NCBI RefSeq assembly: GCF_013106755.1
Contig: NZ_WHPF01000015.1
Span: 62,001-126,000, forward strand
DNA from: Limnovirga soli
Lineage (GTDB): Bacteria > Bacteroidota > Bacteroidia > Chitinophagales > Chitinophagaceae
Length of the DNA: 64,000 nt
Direction: 5' to 3'
Position 1 is the first letter of the stretch; each line of letters begins with the position of its first letter. The notes beneath the pieces were generated by a model. The model was given only the letters and a program-made list of their open reading frames with translations, made no database searches and had not been told where the DNA came from. Of this stretch, positions 25,821 to 35,227 are shown one piece after another. The position numbers and the translations under genes were made by a program.

Positions 25821-25848
25821 AGCTTTACTTGCGTCGCACACTTGTACA
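25821..25848 (+). repeat. family 1 repeat, subtype A
   Basis: AGCTTTACTTGCGTCGCACA followed by CTTGTACAC, between the aldo/keto reductase and CHAT genes. Confidence 0.92.
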
Positions 25849-25979: not shown

Positions 25980-28745
25980 ATGAGTAAAAAGAGGTATATA
26001 CTATTTGTGCTGATAAGTTGTACGTTGTTAATACAACCGCACAGCCAAACTGCTGATATAGATAAAGGCTTTATCAATAAATTTAATAAAGCTGATAGTC
26101 TATTTTCGGGCATTAATGGCGAGTATAATGATTCGCTTGCCTTAAGCTATTTTACAGCTGTTGCGAAAGGCCTCAAAGAAAATGCAACACATGCTATAAT
26201 GCTCTTTAACTGCCAGGAACGAATTGGCATACTGCAACAGGGTTTGGGTAACAGTACTGCAGAAATATTGCAGCATTTTTATAAAGCCATTCAAATACAA
26301 AAATCTTATCAGCTTTCTGATTCTATTACATTCCGTTTATACCTTTCTATCGGTAATGTGCACTATTCTGTTGGCTTATTCGATTCTTCAGTTTTTTATT
26401 ATACCAGGGCCGAAAATGTAATTGACCAATATCCCAATGCAGGCCTTGCCGGCGATTTATACAATTCTCTTGGGGCACTCTATAGCGAAGCTGGCAATTA
26501 TAAACAAAGCAGCAATTATTTTAGTAAGGCATTGGAAATTACCAAACAAACCCGGCCCGAATTAAGGGAAGCCATTTTTGCCATGACGATGAATATCGCT
26601 TCGGCTTTGCGGCTTACAGGCAATTACGATGCTGCCATTGGGGTGTATAATTCTTTATTAAACAATACCGGCAATAAAACACCTTTATTAAACAACCTTG
26701 CCAGAATTTATATAGCAAAACAACAACCTGATAGTGCATTATTTTTTCTTAAACAAATCAAGGATGTAAATGGCCAATATGCAATAGCTTATAATAACTC
26801 TTTGGCAGAAGCCTATTTACAACTGCATAATACCGATGCAGCCAAACAATATTTGTTATTGGCTGAACAAATATTTACAGATAACAGCAAAGGCGCCAGG
26901 AGTATTTATTTTGGTACTACCTGTTTATTAAACGGCAAACTTTTACTGCAATTGCAGCAACCAGAAGCCGCATTGGCCTATTTTCAAAAAGCAATGATAC
27001 AGCTGCACTCAAATTTTTCTGATACCAGCGTGTATGCCAATCCTGCCAGCTATATTGGCGATTTTGCGAGTTATGATTTATTTGAAGCATTAATTGCCAA
27101 AGCCAATTGCTTTGCGCAACTCTACCAGCTTCATCATTCCGGTAAATATGCTGAGGCAGCTATACAAACATTTCAATCTGCTTTTAATCTGGCTGATTAC
27201 ATAAAAAAATCCATAGATAACGATGAAGCCCGTTTGTTTATGGCCGATAAGGTTTTTAATGCCTATAAAAACGCTGTGGCATTTATTATGCAATCGGGCA
27301 ATGATATTGTGTTAACTGAACTTGCACTGCAATGGATAAGCAAAAGCCGGGCTGCAGCACTGGCCATTAGTTTAAATGAAAATAATATAAGGCAATATGC
27401 AGGTTTGCCTGATACCTTATTACAAGAGGAAAAAAATACCCGGCTTTCCCTATCAAGGTTAAAAAGGCAGATGGCACAAGAAACAGATTCTGCCACACAA
27501 CAAACTATTGCATCGCAAGTTAATAGCGCAGAATTATTGCTTAACCGTATAATGAATAAGTACAAGGATTATCCTGCGTACTACGAACAGAAATTTGCTG
27601 CAGATAGCCTTAACATTACAGCTATACAACAAAATATTCTTGATAAAAATACTGCGGCCATTTGCTATTTTAGAACAAATGATACTCTGCTGGCTTTTGT
27701 TATTAAACAAACTACCATTAACTGTATTAAGCTGCCACAGGCTGGTGCCCTGCAAACACAATTAGCATTATTCTCTGAAAGTTTAACGGAACATGTGGCG
27801 GGTAAAAATGATGCCTCAAAAATATCGGGCACGCATTTGTATAATGCTTTAATAGAACCCCTAGTTCCAATTATGTCAGGTATTGAAAACCTGATAATTA
27901 TTCCGGACCAGCAGTTGATTAATATTCCCTTTGAGGCATTTATTGGTCCGGACCATGAATATCTGGTATCGCATTATGCCGTAACCTACCAGTTTGCACT
28001 GCCTTTTTTGCATTTGGATAAACAAATAGCTAACACCACCAATAGTTTGGCATTAGCGCCGTTTGCTAATGCTAAAAATAACCTGCATGGCTATGCAGCC
28101 CTGCCTTCTTCGGCTGAGGAGATTGCTGTTTTTAGTGTAAATGACAGATTAACAAACAGCAATGCAACACGTGCTAACTTTTTAAATCGGGTAAATAATG
28201 CCTCTGTTTTGCATTTGGCTACACATGCCGTTGTTAATTTTAGCAATCCGGCCGATTCTTATATAGCTTTTTACCCATCCAATAATAATGATACTGCGTT
28301 CAAACTATTTGCACATGAACTGTATAACCTGCAATTACCCAATACGCATCTTGTTTTTTTAAGTGCCTGCGAAACGGGCAGTGGTAAAATATCTCAAAGC
28401 GAAGGTGCATTAAGTTTAACCAGGGCTTTTGCCTATGCGGGTTGCCAGAATATTATTACTTCGTTATGGAAAGCTGAAGATAAATCTACCGCCTATTTAA
28501 GTACCCGTTTTTATCATTATACCAATAAAGGGTATACATATGCCAGGGCTTTACAACAGGCTAAAATAGATTTATTAAATGATGCTGCTATGAGCCAGTT
28601 TCACCCGGCTGCTTATTGGAGCCATTTGGTATTTATTGGCGATGTACAGCCTGCTTCCAATGCATTGATTTGGTGGGTAATGGCAGCAGCAATTTTTGCA
28701 GCCGCCATAGGTATTTTATATTTTGTACGTAAACACCGGAAATAA
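25980..28745 (+). CDS. periplasmic TPR-CHAT caspase-like protein with C-terminal anchor
   Basis: This 921-residue protein has an N-terminal signal (MSKKRYILFVLISCTLLIQ), about 300 residues of TPR-like helices (for example YNSLGALYSEAGNYKQSSNYF), a helical middle with Lys/Arg-rich stretches, and a CHAT domain from about residue 600. The catalytic dyad of this clan CD peptidase fold is in place: HLATHA with His749 and LSACETGSGK with Cys797. QLINIPFEAFIGP and ITSLWKAEDKSTA are further family motifs. A single helix (ALIWWVMAAAIFAAAIGILYF) and a basic KHRK tail end it, so the protease part should face the periplasm. The Cys of LISC could instead be a lipobox. The gene converges with an anti-sigma/ECF sigma pair, which suggests a role in signalling by proteolysis. 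The substrate is unknown. Confidence 0.85.
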   Translation: MSKKRYILFVLISCTLLIQPHSQTADIDKGFINKFNKADSLFSGINGEYNDSLALSYFTAVAKGLKENATHAIMLFNCQERIGILQQGLGNSTAEILQHFYKAIQIQKSYQLSDSITFRLYLSIGNVHYSVGLFDSSVFYYTRAENVIDQYPNAGLAGDLYNSLGALYSEAGNYKQSSNYFSKALEITKQTRPELREAIFAMTMNIASALRLTGNYDAAIGVYNSLLNNTGNKTPLLNNLARIYIAKQQPDSALFFLKQIKDVNGQYAIAYNNSLAEAYLQLHNTDAAKQYLLLAEQIFTDNSKGARSIYFGTTCLLNGKLLLQLQQPEAALAYFQKAMIQLHSNFSDTSVYANPASYIGDFASYDLFEALIAKANCFAQLYQLHHSGKYAEAAIQTFQSAFNLADYIKKSIDNDEARLFMADKVFNAYKNAVAFIMQSGNDIVLTELALQWISKSRAAALAISLNENNIRQYAGLPDTLLQEEKNTRLSLSRLKRQMAQETDSATQQTIASQVNSAELLLNRIMNKYKDYPAYYEQKFAADSLNITAIQQNILDKNTAAICYFRTNDTLLAFVIKQTTINCIKLPQAGALQTQLALFSESLTEHVAGKNDASKISGTHLYNALIEPLVPIMSGIENLIIIPDQQLINIPFEAFIGPDHEYLVSHYAVTYQFALPFLHLDKQIANTTNSLALAPFANAKNNLHGYAALPSSAEEIAVFSVNDRLTNSNATRANFLNRVNNASVLHLATHAVVNFSNPADSYIAFYPSNNNDTAFKLFAHELYNLQLPNTHLVFLSACETGSGKISQSEGALSLTRAFAYAGCQNIITSLWKAEDKSTAYLSTRFYHYTNKGYTYARALQQAKIDLLNDAAMSQFHPAAYWSHLVFIGDVQPASNALIWWVMAAAIFAAAIGILYFVRKHRK

Positions 28746-28760
28746 ACCTTTTTTAAGATG

Positions 28761-28803
28761 CCATAAAAGAGGAACCCTGAAGTGATTGCGACGCAAGCGG
28801 CGA
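28761..28803 (-). repeat. family 1 repeat, subtype B
   Basis: Reads GGAACCCTGAAGTG then ATTGCGACGCAAGCGGCG, after GCCATAAAAGA; it has an extra base in the GTG-TGCGACG junction. It lies between the convergent CHAT and anti-sigma genes. Confidence 0.85.
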
Positions 28804-28842
28804 TACCATGAAAAGATACAGCCTGTATCTGCCATTCATCTT

Positions 28843-29619
28843 TTATTGTTTCCAGGTAAGCATGGTTAAAGTTAGTGGGCTTATTTCGCTGGCTTTTTGA
28901 TAAAACAGGTGTTGTTTGTTACCCTTTATAATATCCAGTTGCTTTTTTGCTGCTGTTATATTACCTGCTTTTATATAGGCCATTGCCAGGTAATAATCTG
29001 TTTCATCTGCAAAATATTTATCGTTGCTTTTGCTGTTTAGCTGTTGCAGTGTGCTAAAGTTTTCTATGGCTTTTGCCGCATTATCTGTTTGCAAATAGGA
29101 CAATGCTGCCAGAAAATAATCTTTTTGCTGTTTGTTATTATTGGCAGTAAAGTTGGCAATTACTGCAGTATAATTATTTGATTGGTATAAGCCATCAATT
29201 GTAGCTATGGTTTCGGCACCGCGATTTACAGGAAGTTGGTAAGCCATGTAATTATCGTTGAATACATTATTGGTATTGGTAGTGCTAAACTGGTATATGC
29301 CATAGGTTAGCAATACCACTACAAACACCGCAGCAATACGAAATACCTTACTAACTGTACTACCAAAATTTGGCTTAATTACAGTAGCGGTTGCTTTGGT
29401 AGTGGCCATATATTCTGTATGCAGGGCTTTTATTCTTTGTTGCATGCCCAGCGACTTTATAGCAGATTTTGCCAATTGCAGGTTTTCTAACCTGTCTTGC
29501 AAATTAACATTGGCGGCTATCAATTGTTCCAGCTGTGTAAGTTCTGCGGCCGGCATATCGCCGTCCATAAACATATTCAGTTGTTCAATATTGGTCTCGT
29601 TTGTAAAATTATCTTGCAT
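28843..29619 (-). CDS. membrane anti-sigma-factor-like protein with periplasmic TPR part
   Basis: This 258-residue protein begins with a short acidic helix-rich segment (LNMFMDGDMPAAELTQLEQLI), like the zinc-free anti-sigma domains of Bacteroidota. One membrane helix follows at about residues 90-110 (VFRIAAVFVVVLLTYGIYQF). The rest, presumably periplasmic, is TPR-like (LYQSNNYTAVIANF, YFLAALSYLQTDNAAKAIENF, YYLAMAYIKAGNITAAKKQL). It overlaps the end of the sigma factor gene by 11 bp, so the pair is translationally coupled. It likely holds the sigma factor at the inner membrane until a signal, possibly proteolysis by the neighbouring CHAT protein, frees it; that link is inference. Confidence 0.75.
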   Translation of the reverse strand: MQDNFTNETNIEQLNMFMDGDMPAAELTQLEQLIAANVNLQDRLENLQLAKSAIKSLGMQQRIKALHTEYMATTKATATVIKPNFGSTVSKVFRIAAVFVVVLLTYGIYQFSTTNTNNVFNDNYMAYQLPVNRGAETIATIDGLYQSNNYTAVIANFTANNNKQQKDYFLAALSYLQTDNAAKAIENFSTLQQLNSKSNDKYFADETDYYLAMAYIKAGNITAAKKQLDIIKGNKQHLFYQKASEISPLTLTMLTWKQ

Positions 29620-30223
29620 TCTTCAGGGCGTTTTTAAATTGAGTTTTTAAATCCTTGTTTTCATTTATCAGTTGTTCCAGTTGTTTCATGCATTTGTACT
29701 TTTTGTTACGCAGTACCTGCTCGTTTTGATAATCGGGCATTTGGGCCACTATATCTTTCATGGGCAGATCTTCGTAGTACACCAGCATTAGCAATTGTTT
29801 GCATTTATCTCCCAGTTTTTCAAAAAGATCTTGTATTTGCTGGTAGTATTCCCTTGTTATAAGGTGTTGTACCATACCATCTTCTACCTGATCTTTAGCT
29901 GTTTCAAAGTTCTTGTTCCTGGTATCTGCACTGCTTCTTTTTCTAAGTTCAGATAGCCACAGGTTGCGGGTTATAGTGTACAAGAAAGATTTTACGCTGG
30001 CCTCGCCGCGGTAGGCATCTTTATGAATAATTTCAATAAAAGCCAAAATGGTTTCCTGTATCATGTCAGCTGCATCATCTGCCGATCCACTGTTATTTAT
30101 CACGTAATTTTCAAGCAACCCATAGTATTGTCTGTAAATAAACCTGATAGCATCGTCTGTTTTCCGCTCATCTTTTAGTGCAGCTACTAAATCCTGGTCT
30201 GTGTAATCCCGTACAACCTGCAT
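29609..30223 (-). CDS. ECF-type RNA polymerase sigma factor
   Basis: This 204-residue sigma-70 family protein has region 2 (IRFIYRQYYGLLENYVI, then DAADMIQETILAFIEI and TITRNLWLSELRKRS) and region 4 (LGDKCKQLLMLVYYEDLPMKDIVAQMPDY, with an HTH followed by basic NKKYKCMKQLEQLI). It lacks regions 1 and 3, as expected for ECF factors. It starts at the ATG at 30223 and its end overlaps the anti-sigma gene by 11 bp. The regulon cannot be told, but the convergent CHAT-TPR gene is a candidate partner. A second, unrelated ECF pair is at 59693-61076. Confidence 0.88.
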   Translation of the reverse strand: MQVVRDYTDQDLVAALKDERKTDDAIRFIYRQYYGLLENYVINNSGSADDAADMIQETILAFIEIIHKDAYRGEASVKSFLYTITRNLWLSELRKRSSADTRNKNFETAKDQVEDGMVQHLITREYYQQIQDLFEKLGDKCKQLLMLVYYEDLPMKDIVAQMPDYQNEQVLRNKKYKCMKQLEQLINENKDLKTQFKNALKNAR

Positions 30224-30334
30224 ATTGTTAACATTTATATGTCGAAGTAAAATTGGCCTATGTAACCGAAAATTATAAAAAACTTAAGAATGATATTTAT
30301 TTCTTTTATTAGCCCGGCAAAGATAGGTATAGCA

Positions 30335-30946: not shown

Positions 30947-30973
30947 CGTACAAGTGTGCGACGCAAGTAAAGC
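30947..30973 (-). repeat. family 1 repeat, subtype A
   Basis: Reverse copy, GCGTACAAGTGTGCGACGCA then AGTAAAGCT. Confidence 0.92.
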
Positions 30974-31064: not shown

Positions 31065-32003
31065 CTATTGTTTAAGAATACCTTCCTGTTTAATTCTTGA
31101 CATTATTTCCCGTGTAAACATTTCGGCCCCTTTGGTATTAAGGTGGTTTACATCGTAGAATAAGTCTTTTTGTACATATTTGGGGTCTGAAGCATAATCC
31201 CACAATTCAATATTATGCTCGGCAAAAACCTGTTTGCATACGCGTATTGATTCGTTGTCTTCGAATGGTTTTGTATACATGGGAGACAGGACGGCAACCA
31301 ATGGAATATGATTATCCTGAACGGTTTTTATAAAATATTCTAACCTTTCTTTAGAAAATTCGTCTATACCATCTCTATCGGCAGTATACTCCTGTGGCGG
31401 ATTAATGATTTTACTACCAGGCAAAGGTTGATAGCCATTGATATTATCATTGTCTTTTCTGGAATAGTTTCTTATAATAGATAAAACCTGTGAATTGTAG
31501 GCGTACAGTTTTGATACTTTGGCTTTGTATAATTCCTTAGGGAACAGATCCATTGCCAGTTCTTCAAAATGCTCGTTGGTAAGTACATAGGGTAATATCA
31601 TACTGGCCAATACATCGCCGCCATCTTTATTAGAGCGCCAGGCAATTTCTTTTGATACAATATCAATAATGATCAACTTTGGCTTATGGCTGCCTTCGAG
31701 TGCACCGGGTAAAATAGCAGAGCCATACACTACATTAGAGCCATTACGACCGCAATTATAGGCACTAAGACCCAAAGAATCTGTAATAATTTTGGTATCG
31801 TATGTATGCACGGCACGTGAGCTGCCATAGATTAATACATCTTCGGTTGGGTTATTGATGGCATGTGCAAATGCTGCAGCATCGCCAAGGGGTTCGTTTT
31901 CAAAATAGTATTGAATGATGGAACCCAAACCCCTGTCTACCACAAACATAATGGCCAGGAGGATAATGAGTTTTTTTGCAAATTTTAAATACTGTGCCTT
32001 CAT
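31065..32003 (-). CDS. SGNH-fold partner of MBOAT acyltransferases
   Basis: This 312-residue protein has one N-terminal helix (KKLIILLAIMFVVDRGLGSII) and a periplasmic SGNH-hydrolase-like domain. Block I is DVLIYGSSRAVHTYD with the Ser nucleophile; NCGRNGSNV supplies the Gly/Asn; the C-terminal DVNHLNTKGAEMF supplies the Asp-x-x-His dyad. Paired with an MBOAT gene 9 bp upstream, it resembles the AlgI/AlgJ-AlgX, PatA/PatB and DltB/DltD arrangements. In those, the MBOAT passes an acyl group over the membrane and the SGNH protein puts it on a polysaccharide. An exopolysaccharide is the probable acceptor. A strong terminator follows. Confidence 0.85.
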   Translation of the reverse strand: MKAQYLKFAKKLIILLAIMFVVDRGLGSIIQYYFENEPLGDAAAFAHAINNPTEDVLIYGSSRAVHTYDTKIITDSLGLSAYNCGRNGSNVVYGSAILPGALEGSHKPKLIIIDIVSKEIAWRSNKDGGDVLASMILPYVLTNEHFEELAMDLFPKELYKAKVSKLYAYNSQVLSIIRNYSRKDNDNINGYQPLPGSKIINPPQEYTADRDGIDEFSKERLEYFIKTVQDNHIPLVAVLSPMYTKPFEDNESIRVCKQVFAEHNIELWDYASDPKYVQKDLFYDVNHLNTKGAEMFTREIMSRIKQEGILKQ

Positions 32004-32012
32004 ATGCTAATT

Positions 32013-33434
32013 TTAAAACTGGAAGTAAATGAACTGACCGCCATTAAATACACCTATGGATAATAACAATGTCATTAGCAATACATAGGCTGTATAGCGT
32101 ATTACTACATTATTATTGTTGATAACCCTGAAATCGGGATAGTTTTCCTGAATATGTTCTACAATTATCAGTAAGGCTACTGCGAATAAGGAATAGTTAA
32201 AGGCAGTTGGGGGCTCTCCTTTATAAAAACCACCTGGTTTAATGGTGAATATTGATTTTACTATGTAAAAAGCATCATCTACATTGGCAGCTCTAAAAAA
32301 GATAGCAGTTACCAATACAATAAAGAATACGCTTATTTTACGAAAGAAATTAGATGTAACACCTAATAGTTTATGCAGTTTACGCAAAGCAGGATTTAAT
32401 AAACGCTCTATTGCTATATACAAACCATTTAATAAACCCCAGATAATAAAAGTATAGTTGGCACCATGCCATAAACCGCTTACGGCAAATACAATTACGA
32501 GATTTAAAAGACTCACAATTACCCCTTTTCTACTACCACCAAGTGAGAAATAAAGATAATCTCTAAACCAGGTGGTTAAAGAAATATGCCAGCGTTGCCA
32601 AAGTTCCTGTATGCTTTTTGAGTTAAACAGAGGGCGCCTGAAGTTGGTCATTAAATCGTAGCCCATTACTTTGGCTGCACCTATGGCAATATCTGAATAG
32701 CCTGAGAAATCGCAATATACCTGAAAGGCAAAGAAGAAAGTGGCCATCATCATGCTTATACCACTATGATAATGAGCATTATTGTATACTGCATCTACAT
32801 ATATACCCACCCTGTCTGCAACAATTAATTTTTTTACAAACCCCCATAACATGATACGAAGGCCCTGAACAACCCTATCGTAGTTAAATTGTTTTTCTTC
32901 ATAAAATTGGTGCAGAATATTTTGTGGCCGCTCGATGGGGCCCGCCACCAACTGTGGGTAAAACATTACATATAAGGCATAGATACCAAAATGCTTTTCG
33001 GGTTTTTGATGGCCGCGGTAAACCTCAATGGTATAACTCATGGCCTGAAAAGTATGGAAAGATAACCCTACAGGTAATAAAATATCCAAATGGGGGATGG
33101 GGTTTTGGTAGCTAAACTCGCCCAATACCAGCGTAATATTATGGTTTAAGAAATTATAATATTTAAAAAACGCCAGTACGCCTATATTGGCAATAAGGCT
33201 TAAAACAAGAAAAAGCTTTCGCTTTTTACCCTCACTTTGGGCAATGTAAATACCGGCAAAATAATCCACTACAATAGTAAAGCCCAGGATAAGGATGTAT
33301 ACCGGCAGAAAATACATATAGAAATAACAACTGGCTGCCAGTAATAAGCCCCACCTGTATTTATGCGGTAAAATAAAAAACAGCGATGTAACAATGATAA
33401 AGAAAGCAACAAAAATTAGCGAGTTGAATACCAT
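32013..33434 (-). CDS. MBOAT-family O-acyltransferase (copy 1)
   Basis: This AlgI-like membrane protein of 473 residues is taken from the ATG at 33434, which gives exactly the same start and length as the tandem paralogue; a TTG 42 bp further upstream is the longest frame but unlikely. About ten helices are present. The conserved elements include LLPVGLSFHTFQAMSYTIEV, YVMFYPQLVAGPIERP, CDFSGYSDIAIGAAKVMGY, ELWQRWHISLTTWFRDY and SGLWHGANYTF, where His323 is the MBOAT active-site histidine. It should move acetyl or another acyl group across the inner membrane to the SGNH partner, whose gene starts 9 bp downstream. Confidence 0.93.
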   Translation of the reverse strand: MVFNSLIFVAFFIIVTSLFFILPHKYRWGLLLAASCYFYMYFLPVYILILGFTIVVDYFAGIYIAQSEGKKRKLFLVLSLIANIGVLAFFKYYNFLNHNITLVLGEFSYQNPIPHLDILLPVGLSFHTFQAMSYTIEVYRGHQKPEKHFGIYALYVMFYPQLVAGPIERPQNILHQFYEEKQFNYDRVVQGLRIMLWGFVKKLIVADRVGIYVDAVYNNAHYHSGISMMMATFFFAFQVYCDFSGYSDIAIGAAKVMGYDLMTNFRRPLFNSKSIQELWQRWHISLTTWFRDYLYFSLGGSRKGVIVSLLNLVIVFAVSGLWHGANYTFIIWGLLNGLYIAIERLLNPALRKLHKLLGVTSNFFRKISVFFIVLVTAIFFRAANVDDAFYIVKSIFTIKPGGFYKGEPPTAFNYSLFAVALLIIVEHIQENYPDFRVINNNNVVIRYTAYVLLMTLLLSIGVFNGGQFIYFQF

Positions 33435-33805
33435 TGAGTAGGAGTTTTTCTTATATAAGATTACAATAATAGACAAAAAATCAACAAAAATTTAGAGATA
33501 AGGCCATCTTAATGATTTGTTATCGATGATTTTTGGAATGATTTTATGCTGTTTGAATGCCTTTAATTACGTATTTTATTTTTTAAATAGCTGATTATCA
33601 ATTATTAACAGATAAAAGGATTATATATTTAGATATTTGCAATATGAAAATATTTTTATTAGTATTTAATTGATAAACATGCATTTGTTATTGCGTTAGG
33701 GATTGCAGTGAAAAGCCCGGAATACCGCCTTCGGCGGTATGAGGACTTGCAGCGGAAAGCCCGGCCCCGCCCAAAGCGGGGAAACGCCCACCCTATTATT
33801 AGTTT
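33435..33805. other. intergenic region between the tandem MBOAT genes
   Basis: These 371 bp hold family 2 repeat copy 3 (33691-33790) next to the end of MBOAT copy 2. The rest is AT-rich, probably with the promoter of MBOAT copy 1. No gene is seen. Confidence 0.6.
33691..33790 (+). repeat. family 2 structured repeat, copy 3
   Basis: This longest copy has two strong variable hairpins: ATACCGCC/GGCGGTAT with a three-base loop, and CCCCGC/GCGGGG with the loop CCAAA. They lie where copies 1, 2 and 4 have different sequences, while the frames TTGCGTTAGGGATTGCAGTG and GAGGACTTGCAGCGGAAAGC are kept. Confidence 0.9.
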
Positions 33806-35227
33806 TTAAAACTGAAAATAAATAAACTGCCCTCCATTAAAAACGCCAATTGAAATTAAAAGCGTTAGTAAAAATACATAAGCCGCATACCTAATGACTA
33901 TATTGGAATTATTGATAATTTTTACGTTGGGGTAAAACTCCTGTACATGTTCTACAATTACCAAAAGCAGCACAGCAAAAATGGAATAACTAAATGCTGT
34001 TGGCGGTTCGCCCCTGTAAAAACCACCTGTTTTTAGGGTAAACATAGATTTGGTTATATACCATGCATCGTCTAAAGTTTGTGCCCTAAAAAAGGTAATA
34101 GTGGTACTTACAAAAAAGTAAACACCTAATATTCTAAAAAAATTGGCCGTTTTGCCCAGTAAGGCGTGTATTTTTTTAAGCAGTGGGTTTAAGATTCTTT
34201 CAAACACCAGAAAAAGGCCATTTAGTAAGCCCCAAACAATAAAAGTATAATTGGCCCCATGCCATAAACCACTTATGGCAAATACAAATACCAGGTTAAA
34301 CATGCTGATAACCAACCCTTTTCTGCTGCCACCCATGGAGAAATAAAGATAATCTCTAAACCAGGTGGTTAAGGATATATGCCAGCGTTGCCATACTTCC
34401 TGAAAGCTTTTTGAAATAAGCATGGGGCGCCTGAAATTAGTCATAAGATCGTAACCCATTACCCTGGCGGCCCCTATGGCAATATCAGAATATCCTGAGA
34501 AATCGCAATATATCTGAAACCCAAATAAACAGGTGGCCACAATCATACTTATACCACTGTGGTAATGGGAATTATTATACACAGCATCTACATAAATAGC
34601 CACCCTGTCTGCCACCACCAGCTTTTTTACAAAACCCCATAACATTAATCGTAAGCCACAAACCACACGGTTATATTCAAAGTGCTTTTCTTCATAAAAC
34701 TGGTGGATAATGTTTTGTGGCCTTTCTATAGGGCCCGCCACCAATTGCGGATAAAACATTACATACAAGGCATAAATACCAAAATGCTTTTCCGGTTTTT
34801 GATGGCCGCGATACACTTCAATAGTATAACTCATGGCCTGAAATGTGTGAAAAGTTAATCCAACCGGCAGCAGAATTTCTAAATGAGGAATAGGGTCTTT
34901 ATACCCAAAACCATCCAATAGCAAACTAATATTATGGTTTAAAAAATTGTAGTATTTAAAAAAAGCCAGTACGCCAATATTGGCAATAAGACTCATGGTT
35001 AAAAAAAGCCTTCTTTGGTAACCGGTTGATTTAGCAATATAAATGCCTGCAAAATAATCTACCACTACTGTAAAACCCAGTATTAAAATATAAACGGGCA
35101 AAAAATACATATAAAAATAGCAGCTGGCAGCCAATAGCAAACCCCATCTGTATTTATGTGGCAATACAAAAAAAAGCAAAGTTACAACTATAAAAAAGGC
35201 AACAAAAGCCAATGAATTAAATACCAT
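33806..35227 (-). CDS. MBOAT-family O-acyltransferase (copy 2)
   Basis: This 473-residue protein is a tandem paralogue of the previous gene, alignable without visible gaps and roughly four-fifths identical by eye. All key elements are present, including SGLWHGANYTF with His323, WQRWHISLTTWFRDYLYFS and GPIERPQNII. Differences are gathered in the loops after residues 68 and 100, in the MMATFFFAF/IVATCLFGF helix and in the C-terminal third (residues 340-400). No SGNH partner gene lies directly after it. It may share the one at 31065 or act on another acceptor. The family 2 repeat lies between the two copies. Confidence 0.93.
   Translation of the reverse strand: MVFNSLAFVAFFIVVTLLFFVLPHKYRWGLLLAASCYFYMYFLPVYILILGFTVVVDYFAGIYIAKSTGYQRRLFLTMSLIANIGVLAFFKYYNFLNHNISLLLDGFGYKDPIPHLEILLPVGLTFHTFQAMSYTIEVYRGHQKPEKHFGIYALYVMFYPQLVAGPIERPQNIIHQFYEEKHFEYNRVVCGLRLMLWGFVKKLVVADRVAIYVDAVYNNSHYHSGISMIVATCLFGFQIYCDFSGYSDIAIGAARVMGYDLMTNFRRPMLISKSFQEVWQRWHISLTTWFRDYLYFSMGGSRKGLVISMFNLVFVFAISGLWHGANYTFIVWGLLNGLFLVFERILNPLLKKIHALLGKTANFFRILGVYFFVSTTITFFRAQTLDDAWYITKSMFTLKTGGFYRGEPPTAFSYSIFAVLLLVIVEHVQEFYPNVKIINNSNIVIRYAAYVFLLTLLISIGVFNGGQFIYFQF

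Follow-up and report, generated by a model that had tools for sequence, protein, structure and literature searches.

We describe a 64,000-nt stretch of Limnovirga soli DNA (G000:C7:62001-126000, the window in what follows), in which a gene for a tetratricopeptide repeat (TPR) protein with a CHAT peptidase domain lies beside the genes of an extracytoplasmic function (ECF) sigma factor and its membrane anti-sigma factor. That this CHAT/sigma/anti-sigma neighbourhood is real and functionally linked is nearly certain. We further judge it fairly probable that CHAT is the site-1 protease of the system and cuts the anti-sigma after Arg133, the predicted cut site. This reading is drawn from the recurrence of the linkage in several gene orders, an invariant catalytic His and Cys, matching topology of the two membrane proteins, a conserved residue in the anti-sigma linker that covaries with one CHAT position, and, in relatives, a putative promoter common to the sigma operon and to many CHAT operons.

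In the mechanism that we propose, the N-terminal domain of the anti-sigma would keep the ECF sigma factor at the inner membrane, as family membership and gene order suggest. After export, the TPR-CHAT protein would sit on the periplasmic face of that membrane, with its C-terminal helix as the anchor. A signal is perhaps read by the TPRs of CHAT or of the anti-sigma, or by a lipoprotein encoded just before CHAT in relatives. CHAT would cut the anti-sigma after Arg133, in a linker and about 20 residues outside the helix, and the remaining membrane stub would, by analogy with RseA, DegS and RseP, become a substrate of the genome's single M50 protease, freeing the sigma factor. The genome holds one Peptidase_M50 (E 5.5e-52), but the family is present in all 14 control genomes, and its occurrence therefore says little in favour of the scheme. 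In many members of clade A, as we term the window's nearest relatives (the window, L034-L069 and L197-L276), a promoter motif suggests that the sigma factor may switch on both its own operon and that of the lipoprotein and CHAT, giving positive feedback.

The TPR-CHAT protein and its sigma/anti-sigma neighbours

The TPR-CHAT gene (25980..28745, plus strand) encodes 921 aa. TPRs precede the CHAT domain, a caspase/separase-like domain that occupies residues 616-888 (27825..28643, plus strand; Pfam PF12770, E 6.4e-57, 193.6 bits against a curated cut-off of 24). The catalytic residues His749 (codon 28224..28226, plus strand), within LHLATHA, and Cys797 (codon 28368..28370, plus strand), within LSACETG, are invariant in all 198 aligned CHATs, many of which are only ~30% identical to that of the window. 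Domain score and His-Cys dyad assign the protein to the CHAT family, with predicted peptidase activity. Both the sequence and an AlphaFold model (pLDDT 88.2) give an N-terminal hydrophobic stretch, taken as a signal, and a C-terminal membrane helix at residues 895-920 (28662..28739, plus strand) near a terminal RKHRK. The initial annotation, made without database searches, had already assigned the dyad, the signal and the helix to this protein, and Pfam, alignment, sequence and model bear it out. Among 162 partnered CHATs, the N-terminal hydrophobic stretch is found in 153 and the C-terminal membrane helix in 145, with a positive tail in 144 of these.

On the minus strand, converging with CHAT, are the genes of the membrane anti-sigma (28843..29619, 258 aa) and the ECF sigma factor (29609..30223, 204 aa; Sigma70_r2 E 3.1e-11; ECF model TIGR02937, 65.3 bits against a cut-off of 42.9). 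The CHAT and anti-sigma genes stand tail to tail with 97 nt between their ends. The anti-sigma ATG falls within the sigma gene, and the 11 nt of 29609-29619 belong to both. The two genes are thus coupled, and the convergence of CHAT with a coupled pair stands as it was first described. No Cas match was found among the seven proteins between 23500 and 32003, the neighbourhood to which the scan was confined, with arrays and the remaining genome outside it. PADLOC, run on CHAT, anti-sigma and sigma, returned no CRISPR model and one weak generic TPR match.

The anti-sigma appears to consist of a cytosolic N-terminal domain, one membrane helix and a periplasmic TPR-like part. Its AlphaFold model (mean pLDDT, the predicted local distance difference test, 91.4) has an N-terminal helical domain, a long helix at 87-113 (29281..29361, minus strand) and a helical part from 141 onward. 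Pfam TPR matches are weak and below cut-offs. PDB matches of the model are mostly TPR folds, likewise weak (best E 0.02); none reached E <=0.001, those shown were TPR and other helical folds, and no solved anti-sigma was among the matches listed. A membrane helix is present in 158 of 160 paired anti-sigmas, 151 of which have more Lys/Arg before the helix than after it. Model and hydropathy thus give the one-helix, N-terminus-inside topology of anti-sigmas that act through regulated intramembrane proteolysis, and they uphold the single helix and TPR-like periplasmic part of the first description. Topology was called by simple hydropathy and charge analysis, with no trained predictor. This analysis and the models assign a periplasmic location to CHAT and equally to the TPR-like part of the anti-sigma, rather than setting the two on opposite sides of the membrane, an arrangement that the initial annotation had named as fatal to its proposal.

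Recurrence of the linkage and covariation of CHAT with the linker

CHAT was searched in 195 genomes of the family, and 40 of the best-ranked places were taken, passing over three at contig ends or fragmentary (G149:C610, G153:C409, G122:C186). With the sole other CHAT of the window's own genome and 30 hand-picked places from a phylum search, these formed a set, chosen without sight of anti-sigma positions, in which CHATs longer than 700 aa were counted. An ECF sigma factor lies within 6 kb of 51 of the 73 (28/36 of those closest to the window, 6/6 of the next, and 17/31 of the phylum draw). A second set, of named GTDB genomes, was selected by CHAT similarity alone and overlaps the first; it includes Chitinophagaceae, Cyclobacterium, Algoriphagus, Mucilaginibacter, Pedobacter, Runella and Adhaeribacter. 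There, a sigma factor is near 66 of 79 CHATs (<=6 kb) and an anti-sigma near 67, and 7 of the 13 sigma misses fall near contig ends. Two further collections were made with more knowledge of the outcome: 20 family places hand-picked after the anti-sigma search, most near an anti-sigma row, of which 19 have a sigma factor (bringing the total to 70/93) and which were not used for frequency, and a last set partly chosen with anti-sigma positions in view (36/43 with sigma).

The chance rate was estimated from 628 Sigma70_r2 matches in ~90 Mb of 19 genomes, or 0.10 per 14.8-kb span (0.32 in the densest genome). Binomial p values, in which shared ancestry is ignored, are 1e-33 for 51/73 (2e-11 at the densest-genome rate), 5e-52 for 66/79 (2e-21) and 1e-9 for the phylum draw alone (0.006). 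Random association across genomes, the other outcome that would have spoken against the initial proposal, is therefore not what is seen, given the ~10% expected. From the opposite direction, 66 of the 195 family genomes have an anti-sigma match at E <=1e-10, by a hand count with the threshold set after the table was seen, and all 66 match CHAT, compared with 149/195 overall (p 2e-10).

Gene order is convergent in 83 of 85 clade-A pairs; elsewhere it is same-strand in 42, divergent in 22 and convergent in 13. Because the order varies between clades, the linkage has survived rearrangement. The one other CHAT of the window's own genome also stands beside a sigma factor and a TPR anti-sigma. This second module (L076 4598-9455, on G000:C1) comprises, in this order, the sigma, the TPR anti-sigma, an 82-aa same-strand open reading frame (ORF) and the TPR-CHAT gene.

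Arg133 of the anti-sigma (codon 29221..29223, minus strand) is the proposed P1 residue, on the grounds of its conservation, its place in a model loop and its covariation. It lies between the membrane helix and the TPR-like part, where model confidence dips (mean pLDDT 77 over 131-140, 95 on either side). The only invariant residues among the 30 anti-sigmas of alignment A2 are M1, R133, A184 and I231, at a mean column identity of 35%; in an alignment of 65 named anti-sigmas, R133 is conserved at >=90% and is not invariant. In a larger alignment Arg fills this column in all 85 clade-A pairs, and the matching place in other clades holds Met, sometimes shifted by one alignment column.

To call the linker residue, a script allowed 3 positions of tolerance and required a small residue after it (offset 0 in 156, +1 in 23, others in 4 and none in 1, of 184). 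Over 162 pairs it gave Arg in 124, Met in 34, Lys in 2 and Leu in 2; one of the Leu pairs (L160) looks spurious and was kept in the counts and left out of the tree described below. With the script's rule dropped, 120 of 160 paired anti-sigmas have Arg in the exact column, followed by G in 81, S in 23, D in 13, and N, T and A in one each. On median, the residue stands 24 positions beyond the point where the best hydrophobic window stops (quartiles 22-25).

A single CHAT position follows the type of linker. Glu714 (codon 28119..28121, plus strand) is present in 124/124 Arg-type pairs, 0/34 Met-type, 0/2 Lys-type and 1/2 Leu-type, and among the last 400 CHAT positions it is the only column disjoint between Arg-type and Met/Lys-type. 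A tree of 99 CHAT domains, built with columns 714 and 834 blanked, covers 99 of the 162 pairs (all non-Arg pairs except L160, and 62 of 124 Arg pairs, 22 of them drawn randomly from clade A). On it the partner type switches three times independently, and position 714 changes in 3/3. Where both types were found in one genome, each CHAT lies beside the matching anti-sigma (11/11). In the model, Glu714 sits in helix 711-717, after strand 689-693 and before the catalytic His, close to what we take to be the element supplying P1-pocket residues in other clan CD peptidases. We propose from this sequence pattern that Glu714 may form part of the P1 pocket. In the second module of the genome, Met replaces Arg in the linker and CHAT position 714 is Ala.

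Putative promoter motif, lipoprotein genes and flanking DNA

The motif GGTTACA-N17/18-(T/G)AC(T/A) was derived from clade-A sigma genes, which makes its count at those genes partly circular, the other counts not being so. In clade A it occurs near 47/91 sigma genes (for 32 of these 47, at a distance of 39-46 nt ahead of the called start), 33/91 lipoprotein genes preceding CHAT and 7/24 DUF4382 lipoprotein genes, compared with 22/859 other genes, and before none of 97 anti-sigma genes. The reversed control motif matched 1/859 other genes and none elsewhere. In the loci of other clades, the motif was found at 0/90 sigma genes and 0/992 other genes. These counts indicate that the motif goes with clade-A sigma factors, and CHAT is probably part of the sigma regulon in many relatives.

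In the window, the only exact match precedes the sigma operon, as the putative ECF promoter CGGTTACA-N17-GACATA (30238..30268, minus strand). A scan of the whole genome gave two exact matches, this promoter and C23:143368. Near the latter are ORFs that we presume to be response-regulator-like and uracil-phosphoribosyltransferase-like, and one of 159 aa. A wider regulon could not be called in this genome, where allowing <=1 mismatch gave 24 matches against 44 for the reversed control.

Upstream of 91 of 99 clade-A CHATs (the window not counted), a lipoprotein gene is found no further than 600 nt away, at a median gap of 42 nt. The gene before CHAT in the window encodes an aldo/keto reductase; the lipoprotein homologue is at G000:C7:50328-51227, outside the window, and no exact GGTTACA was seen by eye in its upstream stretch. 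At L317, on the same contig and also outside the window, the unlinked lipoprotein gene adjoins a stretch apparently encoding long Asp-rich repeat runs. The DUF4382 lipoprotein gene, which partly has the sigma promoter motif, separates anti-sigma and CHAT in some of the relatives (as at L042 8671-9516; related genes in 12/40 loci) and is absent from the window locus. In another Arg-type clade (L147, L150-L154), the gene before CHAT on the same strand encodes 646-677 aa; PKD, DUF7619 and DUF7849 domains were found in the two products scanned (L147 and L150), and a role as sensor or substrate is possible.

Beyond the sigma gene, 31065-35227 holds a pair of membrane ORFs (487 and 473 aa) that resemble each other and, on visual inspection, MBOAT proteins, and a 312-aa ORF with no Pfam match; together they look like a duplicated acylation cassette. 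The element TTGCGTCGCAC(A/T)CTTGTA occurs at 15 places in the window with <=2 mismatches (0.01 expected), including 25829-25846 and 30949-30966. Pieces of it also flank the same genes in near relatives, and it is probably a repeated intergenic element of this lineage.

Related systems and alternative readings

The best Foldseek match of the CHAT model is Csx29 (8eey_B, E 4.3e-16), followed by DdvA, the TPR-CHAT of Craspase and separase. In the VIA-align ranking Csx29/Craspase came first (7y9x_B, Z 28.7) and the separase domain next; DdvA scored Z 21.3. Domain-only sequence profiles were used against the PDB because the whole-CHAT profile was swamped by TPR proteins; they gave DdvA at E 1.1e-10, with both catalytic residues aligned, and Csx29 at 1.5e-9. 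Type III-E Craspase (Csx29, Csx30 and CASP-sigma) resembles the window locus in linking a TPR-CHAT protease to an ECF sigma factor and an inhibitor, and extracts from PMC10028731 report CASP-sigma motifs in its own locus that suggest autoregulation. Unlike Craspase, whose genes accompany Cas7-11/gRAMP and a CRISPR array and whose protease is cytosolic and bound to the CRISPR RNA effector, the window CHAT is predicted to be secreted and membrane-anchored, and the sigma inhibitor here looks to be a membrane protein with a single helix and a TPR-like part rather than Csx30.

The DegS-RseP-RseA/sigmaE pathway shares with our proposal a single-pass anti-sigma, a periplasmic cut outside the helix and the one genomic M50 protease. 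DegS is a PDZ serine protease, whereas the proposed site-1 protease is a caspase/separase-like cysteine peptidase encoded with the sigma factor. In DdvA (PDB 8ROT and 8RW5, titled a transmembrane anti-sigma factor), which we take to be from Myxococcus, one part matches the window TPR-CHAT model over 561 residues with His and Cys aligned. Anti-sigma and protease form one polypeptide there and are separate convergent genes here, and DdvA amounts to both functions naturally fused. The CHAT part also superposes on the separase ctSPD (Z 25.4, root mean square deviation 3.0 over 304 residues), and separase cuts after Arg, as stated in extracts from PMC9729208. Separase differs in being eukaryotic and cutting cohesin, and its P1-binding Asp aligned with neither Glu714 nor Asp834. 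The portion of PMC8999054 that describes ECF54 reports CHAT genes in ECF context, with proteolytic control proposed and an example from Geodermatophilus; by that description ECF54 has no cognate anti-sigma, which sets it apart from this locus with its coupled membrane anti-sigma candidate. CHAT peptidases, ECF sigma factors and membrane anti-sigmas are thus already known as kinds, as is the company of CHAT and an ECF sigma factor in type III-E systems, DdvA and ECF54. A partial literature search, for CHAT with ECF or anti-sigma, found no published description of a Bacteroidota-wide, CRISPR-free, periplasmic CHAT/sigma module with a readable cut-site code. Searching for the separase residue likewise gave no result, and among the 20 of 49 papers listed for DdvA no title concerned the anti-sigma.

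CHAT might instead be an output of the pathway, a sigma-controlled protease acting on the upstream lipoprotein or some envelope protein, while another protease starts the release of sigma. The putative clade-A promoter stands before many lipoprotein-CHAT operons as it would for regulon members, and effector genes are frequently linked to their own sigma factor. We think this unlikely, since it leaves unexplained the constraint on the linker residue, its covariation with a CHAT position in three lineages, and DdvA, an anti-sigma that itself carries a TPR-CHAT-like part; in addition, the nearest fold, Csx29, cuts a sigma inhibitor according to extracts from PMC10028731. A CHAT that serves as binding partner or sensor, its TPRs acting by contact on the TPR-like part of the anti-sigma without cutting, would suit the periplasmic placement of such parts in both proteins, as well as the CHAT domain within the anti-sigma itself in DdvA (as its PDB title and molecule name have it). 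However, the His749/Cys797 dyad would be dispensable to a protein that only binds, and the retention of that dyad across such divergent CHATs makes mere contact quite improbable. Lastly, the linker Arg or Met could be a structural or membrane-interface residue and the covariation of Glu714 a matter of shared ancestry only, considering that there are just three independent switches and that strong differences between Arg-type and Met-type CHATs exist at further columns. We give this very little credence: the linker residue lies in the lower-confidence loop and in no packed helix, the exchanges are between dissimilar residues, and no other of the 400 columns is disjoint.

Several results weigh against cleavage of the anti-sigma by CHAT, or against parts of that proposal. 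Of the eight CHATs without a nearby sigma factor among the 36 closest to the window, five (L034, L045, L047, L049 and L061) are in loci that end at a contig edge, and three (L036, L057 and L052, the last with an anti-sigma only) are without the pair away from contig ends; the genome of L036 has an anti-sigma on another contig. No sigma factor is within 6 kb of 14 of the 31 phylum-draw CHATs, and 36 of all 198 CHATs are unpaired. Glu714 is present in 34 of these 36, which makes Glu the common state and its loss the change that accompanies Met. Nor is Arg confined to anti-sigmas with a CHAT nearby, as we had considered, since L187 and L188 carry it in 16-kb loci without one. With three switches a sign test gives p 0.25 and cannot pass. 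The Lys clade (L304, L311) has Met or Ile in place of Glu714 although Lys is basic, a poor fit to a simple charge pocket. Asp834, our first candidate for the P1-binding acid, was dropped as the main one since Met-type CHATs are not uniform there (E 23, N 6, D 4, A 1); it is also disfavoured by K670, equated in extracts from PMC9729208 with the Arg-binding Asp of separase, whose counterpart in the window is Ala838 by hand count. We also looked for a promoter immediately ahead of CHAT, and none of 100 clade-A CHAT genes matched. Csx30, the closest substrate known, has its cut after Leu407 in one system; in a second, the cut falls between residues 427 and 429, and there removal of Met427 stopped cleavage but no alanine substitution proved essential (extracts from PMC9729208 and PMC10028731). 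A strict P1 code can therefore not be taken for granted, and the nearest relative offers a precedent both for a non-Arg site and for site tolerance.

On balance we infer that a periplasmic CHAT cutting the anti-sigma to free the sigma factor without CRISPR, as the initial annotation proposed, is the best-supported reading. A broader generalization is offered as a tentative possibility: Bacteroidota may use a class of CHAT site-1 proteases whose P1 codes (Arg, Met, rarely Lys or Leu) are written in their own anti-sigma linkers and read by the CHAT pocket, with several insulated pathways per cell, and type III-E Craspase might be a CRISPR-guided, cytosolic offshoot of this older module.

The recurrence of CHAT beside an anti-sigma with an apparent cutting site suggests a widespread protease-triggered gene switch without CRISPR across Bacteroidota. 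CHAT proteins are common in these genomes, and the parts of the literature consulted name substrates for no CHAT peptidases other than Csx29 (Csx30) and the CHAT proteases said to cut gasdermin. A large chromosomal CHAT group thereby gains a testable substrate, a cut site predicted to the residue and a predicted promoter. If the proposal is true, ECF sigma factors would gain a release route that runs through a cysteine peptidase, the sigma switch of Craspase would have a non-CRISPR relative, and natural Arg- and Met-type enzyme-substrate sets would be at hand for protein engineering.

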